Shown here: in pieces, positions 2,807 through 14,255 of the stretch
Layout of the letters: each line of letters opens with the position of its first letter
Position numbering within the stretch: position 1 is the first letter of the stretch
Assembly: GCA_005880445.1 (NCBI GenBank)
Contig: VBGJ01000070.1
Span: 1-42,076, forward strand
Source: Chloroflexota bacterium
GTDB lineage: Bacteria > Chloroflexota > Dormibacteria > Aeolococcales > Aeolococcaceae
Reading direction: 5' to 3'
Length of the DNA: 42,076 nucleotides
Made by a program: the position numbers and the translations under genes
Notes under the pieces: model-generated
What the model saw: only the letters and a program-made list of their open reading frames with translations
Database searches by the model: none
Told to the model about the DNA's origin: nothing

Positions 2807-3643
2807 GTGGCCATACAGGCGAACAAACCGAACAACCGAGTGTTCCTCCTCCTGGGGATCCTGCTCGCCGCACTCGCGTTCGGCGGCGTGCTCTTTGCGC
2901 TTCGCCAGAATGGGGGCAATACGTCCACCGTTGTGGTCGCCAAGCACAGCATCCCCGCGGGCACGACACTCACGAGCGACCTCGTCAACACTGTGTCCGA
3001 GCCGAGCAGCGCGGTGCCCTCCGATGCGTACACGGTGACCACAGCCGTGGTGGGCAAGACTTCACAAGTCACGATCGGCGCCAACGACCCCATCGTGCCG
3101 GCGTTCTTCGCTGCGCAGCCGCTTGCCGCACAGGCCTCGACCAACGGCGGCACAGCGCCCGTGTCGATCGAGGGATCGATCACCAAGGGCTACGTGGCGC
3201 TTGCGATCCCCACGAACCTGAGCGGAACCGGCATCACGGGCAACACCGGTGACCAGTCGTCCGTCGGCTACTACATCATCCCCGGCGATCACATCGACAT
3301 CCTCATCGTCACCAATCCGGGCGCCCCGAATGCGGCCGTGCGCTTCTCGTTCCAGGATGTTCCGGTGCTGCGTGTCGGTGCCTCCGGCTCATCGGGCGCG
3401 CCGAGCGTCTTCGTCGTCGAAGTGCCTCGCAGCCAGGCCGAGCTGATCACCACGGTTCTGTCCAACAACAACACCGCCGAGGGCGTCAAGTACGTGCTAC
3501 GTCCCACCTCGGAATGGGGCAAGGTCGGGCCCGACAACTCGAAGTACACGCCCAACTACGAAGACAACTCCGGCCCGCCGCCACCCCCGGTGAAGGACGG
3601 CGGGGTCAATGCGGCCGCGCTGAAAGCGCTCTTCGGCGGCTGA
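2807..3643 (+). CDS. cpaB: Flp pilus assembly protein CpaB/RcpC
   Basis: CpaB/RcpC proteins are periplasm- or exterior-facing assembly factors of Tad (type IVb) pili. This 278-aa protein has one N-terminal membrane segment (about residues 11–32, LLLGILLAALAFGGVLFAL) followed directly by a SAF-type domain (VVVAKHSIPAGTTLTSDLV, about 42–105) and a C-terminal RcpC-like domain (PGDHIDILIVTNP). The tail is Pro-rich (GPPPPPVKDGG). GTG 2807 has AAGGAG 5 nt upstream. The next gene, tadB, starts 4 nt after its stop, so the two are co-transcribed. In many Tad loci tadZ and tadA sit between cpaB and tadB; here they do not. Confidence 0.9.
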   Translation: MAIQANKPNNRVFLLLGILLAALAFGGVLFALRQNGGNTSTVVVAKHSIPAGTTLTSDLVNTVSEPSSAVPSDAYTVTTAVVGKTSQVTIGANDPIVPAFFAAQPLAAQASTNGGTAPVSIEGSITKGYVALAIPTNLSGTGITGNTGDQSSVGYYIIPGDHIDILIVTNPGAPNAAVRFSFQDVPVLRVGASGSSGAPSVFVVEVPRSQAELITTVLSNNNTAEGVKYVLRPTSEWGKVGPDNSKYTPNYEDNSGPPPPPVKDGGVNAAALKALFGG

Positions 3644-3647
3644 CCGG

Positions 3648-4625
3648 GTGAACCCGGCCTCCCTGATCGCCGCCGCGCTCGTCGCGTCGTCGGTCCTCGC
3701 CTTCGCCGCCTTCTTCATGAGCGGGCGCAACAGCCAGGCTGAGGAGATCGCACGGCGGCTCAATCGATATGGCGGCGTGGCGGTGGCGGCGGCACCGACG
3801 CGGCAGAGCACGGGCAACGCACTTCGCGACGCTCTCGACTCGGTCACGTCCGCGCTCAACCCCGTCCTGTCACGCAGCTCGCACACGGGAAAACTTGCAG
3901 ACGACCTGCAGAAGGCCGACCTGAAGCTGAAGTCGTCCGAATGGCTGCTGGCCGTGGTCGGCATCGGCGTGCTGGTGGGCTTGGTCGTCGCGCTCCGGTT
4001 TGGCTCAGTGATCGCGTTCATCCCCTGCCCCATCGTCGTCTGGATTCTCTCGGGGTTCTTCCTCAAGTTTCGGCAGCGGCGGCGCACGCGGGCGTTCAAC
4101 AACCAGCTCGGCGACACCATCATGCTGATGAGCAACGCGCTGAAGGCGGGCCATTCGTTCGCTCAGGCCCTCTCGTCCGTGGCGAAGAATGCCAACCCGC
4201 CGATCTCCGAGGAGTTCTCCCGCGCCACGCGCGAGATCGCACTGGGCATCAACGTCGACGACGCGTTGAACCACATGGTCGAGCGCAACAAGTCGGAAGA
4301 CTTCGATCTGTTGGTGACCGCCGTGCAGATCCAGCGCGTAGTCGGCGGAAACCTCGCCGAGATCCTGGACACGATCGCGTACACGATCCGTGAGCGCATC
4401 CGCATCCAGGGTGAGATCCGCACACTCACGGCACAAGCGCGCACCTCGGGTTGGATCATCACCGTGCTTCCCTTCGCGCTTGCCGGCGCCCTGGCATTGA
4501 TCTCACCGAGTTACTTCGGCCCATTCCTCACCGATCCACTCGGCCACATCATGATCGGAATAGGCTTGGTGTCCATCGCTATAGGCGCAGCCGCGATCCA
4601 GAAGATCGTGCGCATCGAGGTCTGA
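3648..4625 (+). CDS. tadB: Tad pilus inner-membrane platform protein TadB (T2SSF family)
   Basis: TadB and TadC form the inner-membrane platform on which the TadA ATPase works during Flp pilus extrusion. This 325-aa protein has an N-terminal membrane segment (residues ~5–25), a pair near 95–140, the cytoplasmic T2SSF core (LMSNALKAGHSFAQAL, then GGNLAEILDTIAYTIRERIRI), and a C-terminal pair near 270–320. The length fits the family. The GTG start lies 4 nt behind the cpaB stop and tadC follows after a single base, so translation is probably coupled. Confidence 0.92.
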   Translation: MNPASLIAAALVASSVLAFAAFFMSGRNSQAEEIARRLNRYGGVAVAAAPTRQSTGNALRDALDSVTSALNPVLSRSSHTGKLADDLQKADLKLKSSEWLLAVVGIGVLVGLVVALRFGSVIAFIPCPIVVWILSGFFLKFRQRRRTRAFNNQLGDTIMLMSNALKAGHSFAQALSSVAKNANPPISEEFSRATREIALGINVDDALNHMVERNKSEDFDLLVTAVQIQRVVGGNLAEILDTIAYTIRERIRIQGEIRTLTAQARTSGWIITVLPFALAGALALISPSYFGPFLTDPLGHIMIGIGLVSIAIGAAAIQKIVRIEV

Positions 4626-4626
4626 G

Positions 4627-5574
4627 ATGTCGCTGCTCGCTGTCGTCATCGCCGCCGCAGCTGCGGTCGGTGTGCTCTTGATCGTCTTCGGCCTGACACT
4701 CTCGATCTCACCGCGACCGGGAGACCTCCTCGAAGCGCGACTCGCGCAGTTCACCGAGGAGGGTCGCGCTCCCACGACCCTTTCCGAGGTCGAGCTGTCG
4801 ATGCCGCTCTTCGAACGAGTGGTCCGCCCCATGCTCGACGGCCTTGGCGCATTCACCACACGCTTCCTGCACGCGGGAAGCCTCGAGGGTTTGCAGGACA
4901 GGCTCAACCTCGCTGGCCGCCCGTGGGGCATCACAGCGAGTGGTTTCGCCGCGCTGCGCATCCTCTCGCTGCTGCTCTTCACATGCGTCGGCCTGGCGCT
5001 GACCATCGTCATGCAGTTCGAGATGCCCACCCTGCTCCTGGGGCCGGTGGGTGGTGGTGCACTCGGCTACCTCATGCCGCAAATGACGGTTTCACGCAGG
5101 ATCAAGAAGCGGCAGAAGAAGATCCTGCTCGCGATGCCGAGCGCACTCGATCTGCTGACGATCAGCGTGGAGGCCGGGCTCAGCTTCGACGCAGCCTTGA
5201 TGCGCGTCGCGGAGAAGTACCAGAACGCGCTGACCCAGGAGCTCACGCAGGTGCTCAACGAAGTGCGTCTTGGACGGCCGCGGATCGACGCCCTCGACGA
5301 TATGGCGAAACGATGCCACGTCGAAGAGCTGACCAACTTCGTGCAAGCGATCATCCAGTCGGAGCAGCTCGGTGTCGGTATCGCCAACGTGCTGCGCATC
5401 CAGTCTGAGGAGATTCGCCGCCGCCGCCGTCAGCGTGCCGAGGAGCTGGGACAGAAAGCTCCGTTGAAAATGCTCTTTCCCATGGTCGGGTGCATCTTCC
5501 CGACGCTGTTCATCGTTCTCCTGGGCCCGGCGGTCATCGAGGTGGCGCACACCCTCGGCGGCAAATCGGGCTGA
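4627..5574 (+). CDS. tadC: Tad pilus inner-membrane platform protein TadC (T2SSF family)
   Basis: Partner of TadB in the pilus platform, 315 aa. It has an N-terminal hydrophobic segment (residues 1–27), membrane pairs near 105–150, the T2SSF core (LDLLTISVEAGLSFDAAL; SEQLGVGIANVLRIQSEE) and a C-terminal hydrophobic segment (MVGCIFPTLFIVLLGPAVI). The ATG lies one base after the tadB stop. The gene ends in a hairpin whose arms hold its own TGA and the TGA of the convergent gene. The cpaB-tadB-tadC run ends here without tadA or a prepilin peptidase. Confidence 0.92.
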   Translation: MSLLAVVIAAAAAVGVLLIVFGLTLSISPRPGDLLEARLAQFTEEGRAPTTLSEVELSMPLFERVVRPMLDGLGAFTTRFLHAGSLEGLQDRLNLAGRPWGITASGFAALRILSLLLFTCVGLALTIVMQFEMPTLLLGPVGGGALGYLMPQMTVSRRIKKRQKKILLAMPSALDLLTISVEAGLSFDAALMRVAEKYQNALTQELTQVLNEVRLGRPRIDALDDMAKRCHVEELTNFVQAIIQSEQLGVGIANVLRIQSEEIRRRRRQRAEELGQKAPLKMLFPMVGCIFPTLFIVLLGPAVIEVAHTLGGKSG

Positions 5575-5590
5575 CCCCCGCCGGGGTCAG
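5571..5590. terminator. bidirectional hairpin spanning both convergent stop codons
   Basis: CTGACCCC-CGCC-GGGGTCAG is a perfect 8-bp stem with a 4-nt loop. The TGA stops of tadC (plus) and of the convergent minus-strand gene each lie within an arm, leaving only 12 nt between genes. It would fold in either transcript. No T-run follows, so a Rho-independent mechanism is uncertain. Confidence 0.6.
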
Positions 5591-6438
5591 GCGTTCGTCT
5601 CGACTCGCTCTTCGCTGAGGCGCTGCAGGGTCCGCTCGAGGAGCCGGCGCCGGCGCACCCTCCATCGTTCCCGCAGCACGACGTTCGAGCGGTACACGTC
5701 GGGCTCATCGGCCGCGTCATCGCCCCGCTGCAACGCCAGCACTTCACTGCGCAGCTCGCTGAGCCGCAACGCGCCGATCACCTCCACCGCAGCGTGGACC
5801 CGCGCTTCCTCCCCGGATGCGAGCCAGCCGGCGAGCGCCTCCACGAGATCCTCGCGACCCTCTTCGAGGATGGTGTGCGCATACCGCTGCACCTCGACGG
5901 TCAGCGCCTCGATGTGGGATTCGATGCGCCGTTCGACGTAGGCGAGGATCGCGTCACGCGCAGCCTGGTAGGCGAGGACCGCGGCCAAGCCGGGCGCGGC
6001 ACGGCCCAGCAGCAGCTTCTCGAATGGCGTCAGCTCGAGATACCCGAGCTGCTCCGCGGCGATGGAGACGAGCCAGGGGCTCCCGTCCGCACGTAGCAGG
6101 GCCAGGTCCTGCGGCAGCTTGGGCTGCCGCCACGCGTATAGACCGCGTGCAGCCGCCTTCAGCGTGGCCACCGATTCTCGATTGAGCGTGTAGCGGTGAA
6201 TGCTCACCGCAGACGCATCGCTCGTGCTGCCGAGGTGCGGGGCCAGCTCGTCGAGCACCTCGCGCGCCGCTGGGTCACCCGAATCCCGCGGGACGGCGAG
6301 CACAAACGTGGCGCACTGCGTCAATGCGCAGTCGAGGAGTGCATCGTAGTCGGCGCCGACCGGCTCGTCGATGAGGTCGTACGTCTTGCGCGCCGACACG
6401 TCGGAGCGCGAGGTGCGCAGAAGCTGTCGCGTTGCCAT
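5587..6438 (-). CDS. hypothetical protein
   Basis: A 283-aa protein I do not recognise. The first ~150 residues look globular, with a stretch DLALLRADGSPWLVSIAAEQ and a following LELTPFEKLLL. The second half is strongly helical and charged (AYVERRIESHIEALTVEVQRYAH, then an Arg-rich end RWRVRRRRLLERTLQRL). There is no signal peptide and no clear membrane segment. ATG 6438 is preceded by a purine-rich stretch. It is convergent with tadC and divergent from the CvpA-like gene. Codon use looks native. Confidence 0.75.
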   Translation of the reverse strand: MATRQLLRTSRSDVSARKTYDLIDEPVGADYDALLDCALTQCATFVLAVPRDSGDPAAREVLDELAPHLGSTSDASAVSIHRYTLNRESVATLKAAARGLYAWRQPKLPQDLALLRADGSPWLVSIAAEQLGYLELTPFEKLLLGRAAPGLAAVLAYQAARDAILAYVERRIESHIEALTVEVQRYAHTILEEGREDLVEALAGWLASGEEARVHAAVEVIGALRLSELRSEVLALQRGDDAADEPDVYRSNVVLRERWRVRRRRLLERTLQRLSEERVETNA

Positions 6439-7250: not shown

Positions 7251-7673
7251 TCAGCCCTCGCCGGAGCCCGATTCCGTCGCTGCCGCGTCGGAAGTTTGCT
7301 CCCGTGGCTGGAAGAACGAGCCCACCACGGCCCCCAGGCCAACCAGGTTGAACGGCTTCGTGATCAGGTGATTGGCGCCCGCGAGACGCGCGCGCTCCAC
7401 GTCATCGTCGCCGGAGAGCGCCGAGAACATCAGCACTGGCACGTCAGCCGTCTGCGAATTGGTGCGGATCCTCCGGCAGACTTCAATCCCGTCCATGCCG
7501 GGCATCATGATGTCGAGTACCACGAGGTCCGGCCGGTTTGCGCCGATCTCCGTCAGACCGTCCTCGCCGCTTTCGGCGGTGACCACGTCGTAGCCCTCGA
7601 TGCCGAGGTACATGGCGACGATGTGGAGCAGCCGCGGATCGTCGTCGACGATGAGAACGCGCCCGCGACTCAT
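7251..7673 (-). CDS. stand-alone response-regulator receiver protein
   Basis: A 140-aa single-domain receiver with no output domain. All phosphorylation residues are visible: the acidic pair in VLIVDDDPR, the phospho-acceptor Asp in LVVLDIMMPGMDG, the Ser switch in LMFSALSGD, and Lys in ITKPF. The tail is short, polar and Ala/Ser/Glu-rich. The track's 197-aa version starts inside the upstream gene; ATG 7673 (MSRGRVLIV) overlaps that gene's stop in an ATGA arrangement, which implies translational coupling. Single-domain receivers usually pass phosphate on or act by protein contact. No kinase is present in the window. Confidence 0.9.
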   Translation of the reverse strand: MSRGRVLIVDDDPRLLHIVAMYLGIEGYDVVTAESGEDGLTEIGANRPDLVVLDIMMPGMDGIEVCRRIRTNSQTADVPVLMFSALSGDDDVERARLAGANHLITKPFNLVGLGAVVGSFFQPREQTSDAAATESGSGEG

Positions 7674-8416
7674 GCGGCGCCCTCTGCGGAATCGCCCATG
7701 CGCAGCCGCGATGCGAGCTGGAGCTCGCGCTCGCGCAACAACCCGCGCTCGACTGCATCGAGGACCCTTTGATTGAACGCCTCTCGTTCTCTGCGGTCGG
7801 TGTCGGGATCCACCGGCTCGCTGCCCCGGCGTTCGGTGATCCACGGCGGTGACAGCCTGCCGACGACATTCGCGCCGACCTTGACCGCGAGCTCGTCGTC
7901 ATGCGCCTCCTCCACCATCAGGCTCACGCGACGGCTGACGCCCGTGTGGGTCACGAGCTTCCAGGCTCGTTCCCAGGCGCGCAGCCTGTCCACCCCGGTG
8001 AAGACGAGGACCACTGGGTCGGCGATCAACTCGCCGCCTTCCGTATCCAGCTCGTGCAGCAGCAAGCGCCAGACATCGCCGTCGAGCTGCCGCGCCACCC
8101 ACGCGACGAGCGACGGCGCCCGGTTGTCGAGGTCGGGAAGCGGCGTGACCAGCGTCGAGTCCGCGACGGGCAGCGCGCTGACCACTCCGGCATGGCGCCG
8201 GCAGTACAGATGTCCCTCGACGATGACACGGTGCTGCGGGCACCAGGCGGTGCGGCACTGACGCGCGCGCCGATCAGCATACTCGCAGGCAATTGCGGTC
8301 ATGGCTGAACAGCCATCGACGGTGCACGGTAGCGTGCCCTCGCGCTGCGCGAGCTCCTGATAGCGGGGTGGGGAGTCCTGAGGACCAGGGAACGCTGGAG
8401 TCACTGCACTGACCAT
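7670..8416 (-). CDS. hypothetical protein with Cys/His-rich N-terminal region
   Basis: A 248-aa protein of unknown function. Residues ~28–75 hold a dense set of Cys and His (PCTVDGCSAM, QCRTAWCPQHR, YCRRHAG), consistent with one or two zinc sites. The middle is a mixed alpha/beta segment (DPVVLVFTGVDRLRAWERAW) and the C-terminus is helical and charged. Its stop overlaps the start of the receiver gene, so the pair is probably one functional unit, with this protein as a partner or target of the receiver (inference). ATG 8416 is kept; no strong Shine-Dalgarno is visible. Confidence 0.75.
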   Translation of the reverse strand: MVSAVTPAFPGPQDSPPRYQELAQREGTLPCTVDGCSAMTAIACEYADRRARQCRTAWCPQHRVIVEGHLYCRRHAGVVSALPVADSTLVTPLPDLDNRAPSLVAWVARQLDGDVWRLLLHELDTEGGELIADPVVLVFTGVDRLRAWERAWKLVTHTGVSRRVSLMVEEAHDDELAVKVGANVVGRLSPPWITERRGSEPVDPDTDRREREAFNQRVLDAVERGLLRERELQLASRLRMGDSAEGAA

Positions 8417-9607: not shown

Positions 9608-9629
9608 CCACCACTCGTTGTAACCAGTG

Positions 9630-9659
9630 AAAGGAGCCGTCCCGTCGGGCGGCTCCTTT
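9630..9659 (+). terminator. Rho-independent terminator after the pilin gene
   Basis: AAAGGAGCCG-T-CCC-GTC-GGG-CGGCTCCTTT: a perfect 10-bp outer stem plus a 3-bp inner stem around a GTC loop, with TTTCTCGT downstream. It starts 22 nt after the pilin stop and lies inside the track's overlong ORF 9627–11024, which supports a later start for that gene. Confidence 0.85.
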
Positions 9660-9740
9660 CTCGTGCACAGAACAATTCCGGCGGCCGACAGCATGGTCAC
9701 GGCGTCGCCATCGGCCCGTTATTCGACGTACCATGCCGCC

Positions 9741-11024
9741 ATGCCTGAGGGCCCGGGCACAGCGCCGGTGATCCGGGTGCTGATTGCTGATCAGATCGCT
9801 CACATCGTCGAGGATCTGGCGAAGCTGGCCGACTTCTCGGACCAGGTGGATGTGTGTGGGATCGCCCGTCACGACGATGATGTCATCGAGGAAGCACGCC
9901 TCCGCCGGCCGGACGTGCTGCTGGTCAGCTCCGCCATGGGGGGAGCCGACGCGGCGACCCTCGCGGCGCAGCTGGCCGACGCGGCCCCTGGAGCCAAGAT
10001 CCTGTTCGTCACTCCACCGGGCGTCGAGGACGGCGTGGCGGCGCCCGAGATCGGCGAGACCGTCGCGCCGTCCACCACCGGCGCGGAGCTCGTCGCCGCC
10101 ATACGCCGGGCTCAAGGCGTCGATGCACATGAGCCGGCCGTCGCGGCCGAGCCTGAGGAGCCCATGCAGGAGATCATCCCGCGACGTCCTCGTCGGGCGG
10201 GTCGCACGCGCGGCGAGATCTTCCTCGTGTACTCGGGCAAGGGCGGCGTCGGCAAATCGATGATCGCCACGAACCTCGCCGTCGGACTCTCGATCGACAC
10301 GGGTGCGCGCGTCGCACTGGTCGACCTCGACCTGCAATACGGCGATGCCGGCGTGATGATGCAGGTCGACAAGCACCTCACCTCCATCGAGGATCTTGCG
10401 CAACACGGCGAGGTCGTCGACCCCGAAGTTCTCCAAGAGGTGCTCGCCACCGGACCCGCCAGCGTTCGTGTGCTCCTTGCCCCCGCCAGCCCGGAGCTCG
10501 CCGACTTGGTGACGACCGCCAATTTGCGTGCCATCCTCCGCGAGCTGGGCAAGACGCACGATTACATCGTGGTCGACGCACCTGCGCATCTGGAGGAACG
10601 CACGCTCGAGGTCATCGAGCAGGCAGACCAGATCTTGGTGGTGACCGCATTCAACGTGACCGCCGTGAAGAGCACGCGGGTCGCACTCAAGCTCTTCCAG
10701 TCGCTCGGTGTCGAGATGGATCGCATAGCGATCGTGCTCAACCAGTCGCGGCAGAAGGTGACGTTCGCGCGCGGCGACATCGAGCAGCTGCTGCGCTTCA
10801 GGGTGCTTGTGCAGCTCCCTTTCGACACGCGCGTCGACGAGTCCATCGACCACGGGCAGCCGCTCGTGATGAGCGAACCCCGATCCGAGATGAGCAAACA
10901 GTTTCGGGCGCTGGTCGACTACCTCACACCCGACGCGGCCGAGACGGACCGCGCACATGCTGACGACCGGGCTCGCGTGCCCGCGAGCCGGAGGCGTTTC
11001 AGCCTCGGACGACGGCAGTCGTGA
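9741..11024 (+). CDS. TadZ/CpaE-type protein: degenerate receiver + MinD-like ATPase (paralogue 1)
   Basis: TadZ/CpaE proteins place the Tad pilus machine at a site in the cell. Here the N-terminal ~115 residues have the receiver fold outline (VIRVLIADQIAHIVEDL) but the phospho-acceptor position reads VLLVSSAMGG and the conserved Lys is missing, so it should not be phosphorylated. The C-terminal domain is a MinD/ParA-class ATPase with a deviant Walker A ([10 protein letters not shown]), switch I VALVDLDLQYGD, and YIVVDAPAHL as the Walker B region. I start at ATG 9741 (MPEGPGT) because the track start lies in the pilin terminator; ATG 9693 is possible. The C-terminus is Arg-rich. Paralogue 2 follows 13 nt later. 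Confidence 0.88.
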   Translation: MPEGPGTAPVIRVLIADQIAHIVEDLAKLADFSDQVDVCGIARHDDDVIEEARLRRPDVLLVSSAMGGADAATLAAQLADAAPGAKILFVTPPGVEDGVAAPEIGETVAPSTTGAELVAAIRRAQGVDAHEPAVAAEPEEPMQEIIPRRPRRAGRTRGEIFLVYSGKGGVGKSMIATNLAVGLSIDTGARVALVDLDLQYGDAGVMMQVDKHLTSIEDLAQHGEVVDPEVLQEVLATGPASVRVLLAPASPELADLVTTANLRAILRELGKTHDYIVVDAPAHLEERTLEVIEQADQILVVTAFNVTAVKSTRVALKLFQSLGVEMDRIAIVLNQSRQKVTFARGDIEQLLRFRVLVQLPFDTRVDESIDHGQPLVMSEPRSEMSKQFRALVDYLTPDAAETDRAHADDRARVPASRRRFSLGRRQS

Positions 11025-11037
11025 GTTCGCGGCCCTC

Positions 11038-12242
11038 ATGATCCGCGTGCTGCTCGCCGACGGCAGCGAGCAAATCGTCGCCAATCTGAGTCGCTCGCTG
11101 GCGGGGGTGAGCGAGCTGGTCGTCTGCGGGACGGCCGGAGACGGTGAGCACGCGATCCAGGAGGCGCTGCACCTCCGGCCGGATGTGGCCGTCGTCGACG
11201 CCAGCCTGCCGGGGATGGACGGCATCCAGGTCACCGAGATGCTCGCGCAATTCGTTCCGGACGCGGGTGTGATCATCACCTCGCTCGAGGGCGAGACCGA
11301 CCTGATCCGGCGCGCCATGCTGGCCGGCGCCCGCGAAGTGCTCCGAAAGCCGTTCCGGGGCGATGACCTCGTGTCCGCGATCCAGGGGGTCCACGCCTTT
11401 CAGGAGCGCAAGCGCGCGAACAACCCGCCGCCGCCGGCGGCCAGCGCGCTCGAGACGGTTGCCGGTGGAGGACGCGCCGCGGCCGCCCCTGCGACGCCGG
11501 TCGGTAACGGGCGGCTGTTCACCGTCCTCGCGGGCAAGGGCGGGGTGGGCAAGACCGTGGTCGCGACCAACCTTGCGGTCGCGCTGGCACGCGGAGACAG
11601 CCAGCGCGTGGCGCTGCTGGACCTGTCACTGCAGTTCGGTGATGTCGCCGCACTGCTGAACATCCACTCACCACGCACGATCGCCGACCTGGCCGCGCAT
11701 GATGCCGTCGCCGATCGCGAAGTTGTGCGGACTACGTCACGACACACCATCTTCGCGCGCTTCTCGACGATCTCCGGGTGAGTCACCAACTGCTCGTGGC
11801 CGACACGACCTCGCAGCTCAACGAGATAACCCTCGAGGCGGTCGAGAGCTCTGACCGCATCGTTCTGGTGACGGACTACAGCGTGACGGGAGTGAAGAAC
11901 ACGCGCTTGTTGCTGACCGTCCTCGAGGTGCTGCACGTGCCTCCGGAGCACATTGTGCTGGTGGCCAATACGCGCGATCCCAGGACCGACAACCACCTCG
12001 ATCGTGCGCAGGCGGAGAGCTTCCTCCACCAGCCGATTGCCTTGGAGATTCCGCACGATCCGGCTGTCGTGGGCGCATCCATCAGCCGCGGAGTCCCATT
12101 TCTGTCGAGCGCACCGCAGAGCCTTGCAGGACGTGCCATCACGCAGCTGGCAGACGTGCTTGCGGGGCGCCAGGCTGAGACGATGACGGACACGACTCCA
12201 GAGCGGAAGCGTCAGCGCCGCCTGTTGGGATTCGCTCGCTGA
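11038..12242 (+). pseudogene. TadZ/CpaE-type receiver–MinD ATPase, paralogue 2, split by an internal deletion and frameshift
   Basis: ORFs 10957–11781 and 11778–12242 are two halves of one paralogue. The first, from ATG 11038, has a receiver with an intact phospho-site (VAVVDASLPGMDG), Lys (LRKPF) and Walker A (AGKGGVGKT), and runs in frame to ADREVV. The second resumes in another frame at DYVTTHHLRALL, matching DLVTTANLRAIL of paralogue 1. Aligning DNA with paralogue 1, the segment between GAAGTT plus 5 nt and GACTACGTCACG is 67 nt shorter; 67 leaves a remainder of 1 on division by 3, exactly the frame change seen. The lost part covers the ATG/GPASVRVLLAP loop of the ATPase core. A real disabling deletion is the simplest reading; an assembly error cannot be excluded. 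Confidence 0.85.
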
Positions 12243-12252
12243 GGACTGCGAT

Positions 12253-13482
12253 CTAGCGGCCGAAGAGACCGCGCCGCCGTCGCTGCTTCTCCGGACCGGG
12301 CGGACCGGGCGCACCGACCGCCACCGGATGCTCGCGCCCGATCTGCCCGGCCAGGTCCCGTACTACGCGCGTGATCTCAGACTCCGGGTGAAGGGTGACG
12401 AATGGCGCACCGTGGGTCACCGCGTCGCCGACGATGCGCGGCTCGTGCGGCACCTGCGCGGCAACCGTATGGCGCAGGGTTTGCTCAATCGATTCCCGGT
12501 TGAAGTCGGAGTGGCCGTCGCTTCGGTTGACTACGAGCAAGATGCTTGCAGAATCGACGTTCAGCGACTCGAGGACCTTCAGGCTGAGCTTCGCATCCTT
12601 GATTGCAGGGATGGTGAGCGCTGTGACCACCAGGATTCGCTGCGCCTGCTCGATCACCTCGAGATTGAACTCCGCCAGGTGGCATGCGGTGTCGACCACC
12701 ACGTAGTCATAGTTCTTGCGCAGCTCACCGATGACGGTGCGGACGTGTTCTGTGTTGACGAGGTCTGCCAGCTCTGGGCTGATCGGCGCCAGAAGAACGC
12801 GCACTCCACCAGGCCCGGTGGCAAGGATCTCGTTGAGCAGCTCGGCGTCAAGACCATCCCCGGCATCGACCACATCGGTGATCGACCGGCTGTGGTCCAG
12901 GGCGAGCATCACACCGACGTCACCAAACTGCAGGTTCAGGTCGGCGAGAGCGACACGTGCCTTGGTCTCGTTGGCAAGCGCGACAGCGAGGTTGGTCGCG
13001 AGCAGCGTCTTGCCGACGCCACCCTTGCCGGAGAACAGGACGATGACGTCGCCGGGCGCGGATTTGCGCGCCACGTCCGGCTCGCCCGGCGTTCGCCCCG
13101 CCGTCCCCTTCTTCTGCTCGAGCTGGTGGACGCGCCGGATGGCCGCGACGAGCTCATCGTGGCTGAACGGCTTGATCAAGTATTCGCGTGCGCCGGCCTG
13201 CATGGCGCGACGCAGATAGTCGCGCTCACCCTGCACCGACATGATGATCACGGGCGAAGCCGGCAGCTCGGCGGCCAGGCGTTCGGTGAGCTGGATGCCG
13301 TCCATGTTGGGCATGTTCACGTCGGTGAGCACGATGTCCGGTCGCACGCGGTGCGCCTCTTCGAGCCCCTGCCGGCCGTCACCGGCGGTGCCGGCCACCT
13401 CGATGTCCTCCTCGAAGCTGAGCAGCTTCTGGAGGTTGTCTCGCGTGCTCGCGATGTCGTCGACGATGAGAATGCGGATCAA
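12253..13482 (-). CDS. TadZ/CpaE-type response regulator: intact receiver + MinD-like ATPase (paralogue 3)
   Basis: A 409-aa protein and the most complete of the three paralogues. The receiver (residues 1–120) has every key residue: the acidic pair in ILIVDDIAS, Asp in [13 protein letters not shown], Ser in IIMSVQGE and Lys in [11 protein letters not shown] short linker leads to the MinD-like ATPase: Walker [23 protein letters not shown], and [10 protein letters not shown]. The C-terminus is Pro/Arg-rich ([13 protein letters not shown]). The TTG start at 13482 lies 7 nt behind the rplA stop on the same strand, so it is probably read from the ribosomal-protein operon. It ends 10 nt from paralogue 2, convergently. 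Confidence 0.92.
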
Positions 13483-13489
13483 GCGACGC

Positions 13490-14200
13490 TCAACCTGCAG
13501 AGAGCCGCGATGCCTGCGCCGGATCGACGTGGATGCCCGGTCCCATCGTCGCGGCGACCGTGACCGTCTTCACGTACGTTCCCTTGGCAGCCTGTGGCTT
13601 GGCGCGCATGATCGCGTCCATCAACGCGGTAAAATTGTCGCGCAGCTTGTCGTCGTCGAACGATGCCTTGCCGATCGCGGCGTGCACGATCCCGAATCGA
13701 TCGACGCGGAACTCGATGCGGCCTCCCTGGACATCGCGGATCGCTTTGGCGATGTCGAAGGTCACCGTACCGGCTTTCGGGTTCGGCATGAGTCCGCGCG
13801 GCCCGAGGAGCTTGCCGAGCCTTCCTACCGTGCCCATCAGATCGGGCGTGGCCAGCGCGACATCGAAGTCGACTGCGCCGTCCTGCACCTTCTTGACCAG
13901 ATCCTCCCCACCGACCAGATCGGCGCCCGCCTCCAACGCTTCGCGCGCCTTCTCGCCCTGCGCGAACACGGCGATGCGCCGGGTCTTGCCGGTGCCGTGC
14001 GGAAGCACGACGCTGCTGCGCACCATCTGGTCGGCATGGCGCGGATCGACGCCGAGGCGGACGTGCGCCTCGACGGATGAGTCGAATTTGGTCGTGGCCG
14101 TCTGACGCACCAGCGCCATCGCTTCGGCAGGCGCGTACAGCTTGCCGTTCTCCAGAGCCGATGCGGCGTCGCGGTACTTCTTTCCGTGTGGGTGCGGCAT
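13490..14200 (-). CDS. rplA: 50S ribosomal protein L1
   Basis: L1 forms the mobile stalk of the large subunit at the E site and in many bacteria represses its own L11–L1 transcript. The sequence is clear L1: [17 protein letters not shown] at the N-terminus, [23 protein letters not shown] in the middle, and [22 protein letters not shown] near the end. The track starts at ATG 14209, but AGGAG directly abuts that codon; ATG 14200 (MPHPHGKK) has the same AGGAG 9 nt upstream and is preferred, giving 236 aa. Downstream, where rplJ–rplL–rpoB usually follow, lies a TadZ-type gene. Confidence 0.97.
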
Positions 14201-14255
14201 GGTGGTCATCTCCTGTGGTGCGAGCGGCCGGGGACGCGGCCTCCCACGTGATGGA

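Follow-up and report, generated by a model that had tools for sequence, protein, structure and literature searches.

Three TadZ/CpaE Paralogs With Different Receiver Domains in the Tad Pilus Locus of a Dormibacterota Bacterium

Genes and Features of the tad Locus

The DNA analyzed (the window, the whole stretch of 42,076 nucleotides) came from a soil bacterium of the Dormibacterota represented by a MAG (251 contigs, 86% complete; G000) and was compared with relatives within Candidatus Dormiibacterota, where f1 denotes the family of the window, type A the gene arrangement of most f1 members, and type B that of G008, G010, and G016. The preliminary description had placed three receiver-MinD paralogs of the TadZ/CpaE kind (P1, P2, and P3) at 9741-13482, and both its coordinates and its domain calls were right (Table 1). 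The Tad/Flp pilus genes flp, cpaB, tadB, and tadC were found in the same cluster, giving the gene context typical of TadZ/CpaE. A cpaF-like gene (N-terminus MSLLDRVQR) was on contig C198 and a second T2SSE (cpaF-like motor) gene on contig C46, both away from the tad cluster; contig C46 additionally carried MinD-like and response-regulator genes. A plasmid search returned distant matches only (identity under 60%).

Table 1. Positions of the paralogs and neighboring features in the window.
Feature	Position	Strand	Basis
P1: TadZ/CpaE paralog, pseudo-receiver (no phospho-Asp, no Lys), ATPase motifs intact (KGGVGKS)	9741..11024	+	Pfam, AlphaFold, residues, PDB 3fkq match
P2, whole: two frames	11038-12242	+	
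P2, first frame: receiver retaining D57 and K109, then ATPase N-half, frameshift at end	11038..11781	+	
P2, lesion: 22 residues of intact orthologs (P3 residues 217-238) gone, frame altered	11720..11735	+	
P2, second frame: ATPase C-half and basic/amphipathic tail at the C-terminus; GTG at 11778 overlaps first-frame TGA	11718..12242	+	
P3: TadZ/CpaE ortholog, complete receiver and ATPase; same strand as rplA, directly behind it	12253..13482	-	
flp: Flp/Fap pilin gene, upstream of P1	9413..9607	+	Pfam Flp_Fap
Strong terminator-like hairpin in flp-P1 gap; after flp in 21/21 loci examined, sequence changing	9627..9666	+	
rplA: ribosomal protein L1, directly upstream of P3	13490..14209	-	
cpaB-like (SAF/RcpC)	2807..3643	+	
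tadB-like platform protein	3648..4625	+	Domain search and synteny
tadC-like platform protein	4627..5574	+	Domain search and synteny
Response-regulator receiver gene, no other Pfam domain; in gene group of most type-A relatives	7251..7844	-	

The start of P3 was 7 bases from the rplA stop, within a nusG-rplK-rplA string (12253-14209) kept in those type-A relatives with contig coverage, and the counterpart of this rplA-linked gene in families f2, f3, and f4 sits in the tad operon instead. The hairpin between flp and P1 was considered as a P1-specific element and rejected; because G009, which has no P1, still carries a hairpin after flp, the element is most simply the flp terminator. Two further proteins without a Pfam match (7673-8416 and 5587-6438) keep their place within the tad gene group; the former includes a stretch rich in Cys and His, a possible metal-binding site. 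Upstream of cpaB, two proteins of no clear family (80-2618) were conserved in most type-A relatives and are perhaps unrecognized pilus parts.

Receiver and ATPase Domains

Pfam searches detected a receiver (Response_reg, 108 bits) followed by AAA_31/ParA in P3 and a receiver (70 bits) with the N-half of the ATPase in P2, while P1 had a strong ATPase match and a receiver score of 22 bits that was under the Pfam cut-off of 30.2. Receiver residues were read at CheY positions 12, 13, 57, 87, and 109. P3 in the window had D, D, D, S, and K, the complete set of acidic pair, phospho-Asp, Thr/Ser, and Lys that was retained in all 23 of 23 genomes, P2 had D, G, D, S, and K with one acidic residue absent, and P1 had D, Q, S, T, and P with both the phospho-Asp and the Lys absent. 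The full residue set of a phosphorylatable receiver was thus present in P3 and in neither of the other two. P2 orthologs kept the phospho-Asp (D57) and the Lys (K109) in 22 of 22 cases, and neither was found in any of 19 readable P1 receivers, so that P1 was an atypical receiver by absence of the phospho-Asp and P2 and P3 were not. These residue states agree with those first described for each paralog. Among more distant proteins, an Anaerolineae TadZ (L050:1231-2448) had Glu at the phospho-Asp position.

In the ATPase domain, P1 and P3 of the window both retained the signature Lys and the Walker-A Lys. The Walker-A Lys was missing from 7 of 15 P1 proteins in the first ortholog set, and the P1 of G015 had no receiver domain. 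All three paralogs ended in a basic/hydrophobic tail resembling the GFLKRLFGG of Escherichia coli MinD (RQRRLLGFAR in P3 and RRRFSLGRRQS in P1; KGFLKRLFGG in E. coli MinD), and this resemblance suggests a membrane role for the tails.

TadZ Identity, Structure, and Phylogeny

The two-domain TadZ/CpaE architecture of a receiver-like domain and a MinD/ParA-type ATPase was identified by Pfam and AlphaFold in P1 and P3 and was spread across two frames in P2. The AlphaFold model of P3 had a full receiver and a MinD-like domain (pLDDT 82.7), and that of P1 had a receiver fold with no alpha4 helix assigned between beta4 and beta5 (pLDDT 77 overall, low in this region). Among the top Foldseek hits, PDB 3fkq, which we take to be the solved TadZ of Eubacterium rectale, was the match covering both domains for P1 (E 6e-14) and P3 (E 9e-15), over alignments of 384-394 columns with a TM score of just 0.44-0.53 and a large rmsd.

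Phylogenetic analysis placed P1, P2, and P3 inside one Dormibacterota TadZ clade (SH-aLRT 99) with the non-Dormibacterota TadZ proteins outside, P1 and P2 each forming one clade (SH-aLRT 96 and 98, respectively). P3 grouped with the type-B TadZ, the P3 proteins of g14 being unplaced on a long branch. A wider tree, from a quick search with long branches and hence an uncertain deep order, joined P3 to the single TadZ of other families and left MinD of E. coli outside the TadZ clade, together with three MinD-like proteins encoded in the window genome. The outcome that would have refuted the preliminary description, a phylogeny with paralogs 1 and 3 in unrelated families, therefore did not occur, as both were TadZ/CpaE proteins. 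An identity as MinD or FlhG was rejected from the tree and from minD_bact scores of 87.5 and 79.6 bits against a cut-off of 212.9, as was Ssd, the actinobacterial CpaE homolog (TIGR03815; P1 65.7 and P3 63.5 bits against a cut-off of 154.45). In topology tests, a duplication strictly within the type-A lineage was borderline rejected (AU p = 0.044) and P1 and P2 as sisters were not rejected (p = 0.52).

Distribution and Gene Order

Across the 110 scanned genomes of the class, f1 had several close TadZ copies and, at the scan threshold, each f2 and f3 member had one, with one exception. The f2, f3, and sampled f4 loci had one complete-receiver TadZ in the order flp-cpaB-tadZ-cpaF-tadB-tadC, or most of it, and the P3 ortholog in f3 sits between cpaB and cpaF; a single TadZ per Tad system, the usual state according to the preliminary description, was thus confirmed for the sister families f2 and f3. 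Type-A loci, which make up most of f1, had rplK-rplA-P3, P2 and P1 convergent to P3, flp, a conserved group, and tadC-tadB-cpaB, with cpaF absent from the tad cluster. Type-B genomes had the canonical operon with one TadZ of the P3 kind and no P3 behind rplA in the stretches read (the G010 contig ends there). G021 clustered with type B when rplA was used for the tree, yet gave no P3-type match, and G009 lacked P1 and P2 with the tad genes and P3 otherwise present. In genus g7, a coiled-coil gene that is EnvC-like by eye only was between P1 and P2 (L125:4378-5760 and L127:13333-14709).

The best reading of these data is that P3 is the ancestral TadZ gene and that P1 and P2 are copies added behind the pilin gene flp, the set being a lineage-specific TadZ triplication with receiver specialization. 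P1 and P2 are expendable, since G009 has neither and the type-B relatives are without the arrangement.

Selective Constraint

Mean identity within each paralog for receiver and ATPase, respectively, was 0.87 and 0.67 in P3, 0.69 and 0.55 in P2, and 0.42 and 0.56 in P1, indicating that constraint falls on the receiver of P3 and P2 and, in P1, on the ATPase. Linker lengths by alignment were 26-31 amino acids in P3, 23-46 in P2, and 3-250 in P1. The dN/dS of the P1 receiver in close pairs was 0.03-0.25 (simple Nei-Gojobori counts, with some pairs near silent-site saturation), as for a maintained pseudo-receiver, and the sequence comparisons point to an ancient pseudo-receiver still held by purifying selection. 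Of the "graded receiver decay" first described, the gradient therefore stands and is family-wide, whereas "decay" does not fit P1.

The P2 Lesion

The report of a broken P2 ATPase was borne out by the loss of exactly 22 amino acids, equal to P3 residues 217-238, together with a frameshift, for which a deletion of 67 nt is deduced from the sequence. The gap takes out L, L, P, P, and E positions that do not vary in alignment A1, and the first frame ends at a TGA (11779-11781) overlapping the GTG. A programmed frameshift or two-protein P2 using this GTGA overlap (11778-11781) was rejected, as the orthologs are single-frame and the missing 22 residues hold conserved ATPase positions. The 14 P2 orthologs of the first set were uninterrupted, as were those added later except at contig ends. 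Among the nearest relatives of the window by rplA (G009 and G002), P2 was absent from G009, and the short G002 contigs had no P2 after P1 or P3. Both halves of the window P2 were well conserved (ATPase 68% identical to that of G001, short end branch in the tree). The best reading is of a redundant P2 inactivated in the window genome.

Proposed Function and Alternative Explanations

The Caulobacter CpaE has an atypical receiver, is predicted to be a homodimer, and has been modeled as six dimers round CpaF with inter-dimer contacts likely via the receivers (PMC13170226), and TadZ has been described as an early hub recruiting Tad components (PMC6668835). We suggest that P1, P2, and P3 are paralogs of one Tad (type IVc) pilus, with P3 as phosphorylatable core, P1 as pseudo-receiver partner, and P2 redundant, an explanation for which our confidence and our doubt are evenly balanced. 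Its groundwork, namely the TadZ identity, orthology, residue pattern, selection, gene order, and P2 lesion, can be read from the sequences with high confidence. P3 would be a membrane-associated MinD-like ATPase with a receiver able to accept phosphate, likely organizing the Tad motor at a cell site by analogy with known systems, and its receiver would likely be the entry for regulatory input. No kinase gene was recognized among the window genes tested (21 HATPase_c matches were elsewhere in the genome), so the case for P3 phosphorylation is made from its residues. The position of P3 directly behind rplA in most of the family makes its co-transcription with the ribosomal protein genes probable. 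P1, which has kept its ATPase along with a pseudo-receiver with a degenerate beta4-alpha4-beta5 region and a variable linker, is probably a phosphorylation-blind partner within the same TadZ assembly, again by analogy. P2 would be a redundant further copy that carries a receiver and has been inactivated in the window. Taken jointly, membrane binding by the tails, a shared ring, P3 phosphorylation, and co-transcription with rplA are a tentative set. Against the explanation as a whole are G009 without P1 and P2, the type-B relatives with one TadZ of the P3 kind, the receiver-less P1 of G015, and the loss of the P1 Walker-A Lys in several genomes.

The pilus could plausibly be modulated by a ring mixing P1 and P3; an elaboration of this idea, in which ribosomal-linked phosphorylatable P3 and pilin-linked P1 compete round CpaF and their ratio and phosphorylation set pilus activity with growth rate, seems quite improbable. 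We give equally little credence to the switch suggested in the preliminary description, taken as an obligate P1/P3 heterodimer in which phosphorylating the P3 half would move the pilus from one position or state to another. Most of the family does have phosphorylatable-type and pseudo-receiver copies side by side, the window P1 and P3 share both lysines, and regulation by pseudo-receiver/receiver heterodimers is known or has been proposed in cases such as WhiI-BldM and CmrRST (PMC12632262). However, G009 has its P3 and tad genes without P1 or P2 and type B likewise lacks both, so the pilus cannot depend on a P1/P3 switch; the single-copy ortholog as the only one in f2 and f3, the predicted CpaE homodimer (PMC13170226), the P1 proteins without a Walker-A Lys, and the one without a receiver also count against obligate pairing.

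Alternatively, P1 and P2 could be leftovers of relaxed redundancy drifting to loss, with P3 doing all the work and the gradient functionless. The window subclade (G000, G002, and G009) fits this, with P2 broken, not found, and absent in the three genomes, respectively, a highly divergent P1 in G002 (SGGAGTS as Walker A, and D replaced by Y in Walker B), and P1 absent in G009. In the other genera, however, both genes are undamaged, their dN/dS is about 0.003-0.25, and their residue patterns stay strict across deep divergence, so that they are considered functional there, which makes general redundancy unlikely. A narrower reading applies to P2 alone and can be held alongside any of the others: as the genome is a fragmented MAG, the frameshift could be an assembly or sequencing error, leaving all three copies intact. 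The good conservation of both P2 halves and the frame-split P1 or P3 in other MAGs (G046, G043, and G016) are consistent with such an error, but a 22-residue loss is atypical for a single-base error and the two nearest relatives also have no detectable P2, so that we regard it as rather unlikely, if slightly less so than general redundancy.

Comparison With Known Systems

The TadZ/CpaE receiver has been called atypical where studied. A complete receiver (P3) and a maintained pseudo-receiver (P1) in one lineage offer a natural comparison for the role of the receiver in Tad pili, which could reveal whether pseudo-receivers act as partners of real receivers. The three paralogs with graded receivers form a family-level pattern, read here as a TadZ triplication with receiver specialization. 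A literature search of incomplete coverage returned no paper on TadZ paralogs within one tad locus and nothing on Tad pili in Dormibacterota, a silence that is a weak sign of novelty.

The E. rectale TadZ (3fkq) and Caulobacter CpaE share with the window proteins a receiver-like domain followed by a MinD/ParA-type ATPase and the Tad gene context, but have an atypical receiver (PMC13170226) where that of P3 is complete, and are one protein rather than three paralogs. The single TadZ of f2, f3, and f4 is closer, being a P3 ortholog with a complete receiver in a canonical tad operon; it is one copy beside cpaF, whereas in the window family P3 has moved behind rplA, P1 and P2 have been added, and the cpaF-like gene of the window genome is on a separate contig. 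MinD and FlhG (FleN) are similar in the ATPase fold, the deviant Walker A, and the C-terminal basic/hydrophobic tail, but E. coli MinD has no receiver and is outside the TadZ clade, and NCBIfam MinD models scored under their cut-off. WhiI-BldM is alike in including a non-phosphorylatable receiver protein, paired there with another response regulator; these are transcription factors, whereas the output of P1 and P3 is a MinD-like ATPase and their partnership is putative.
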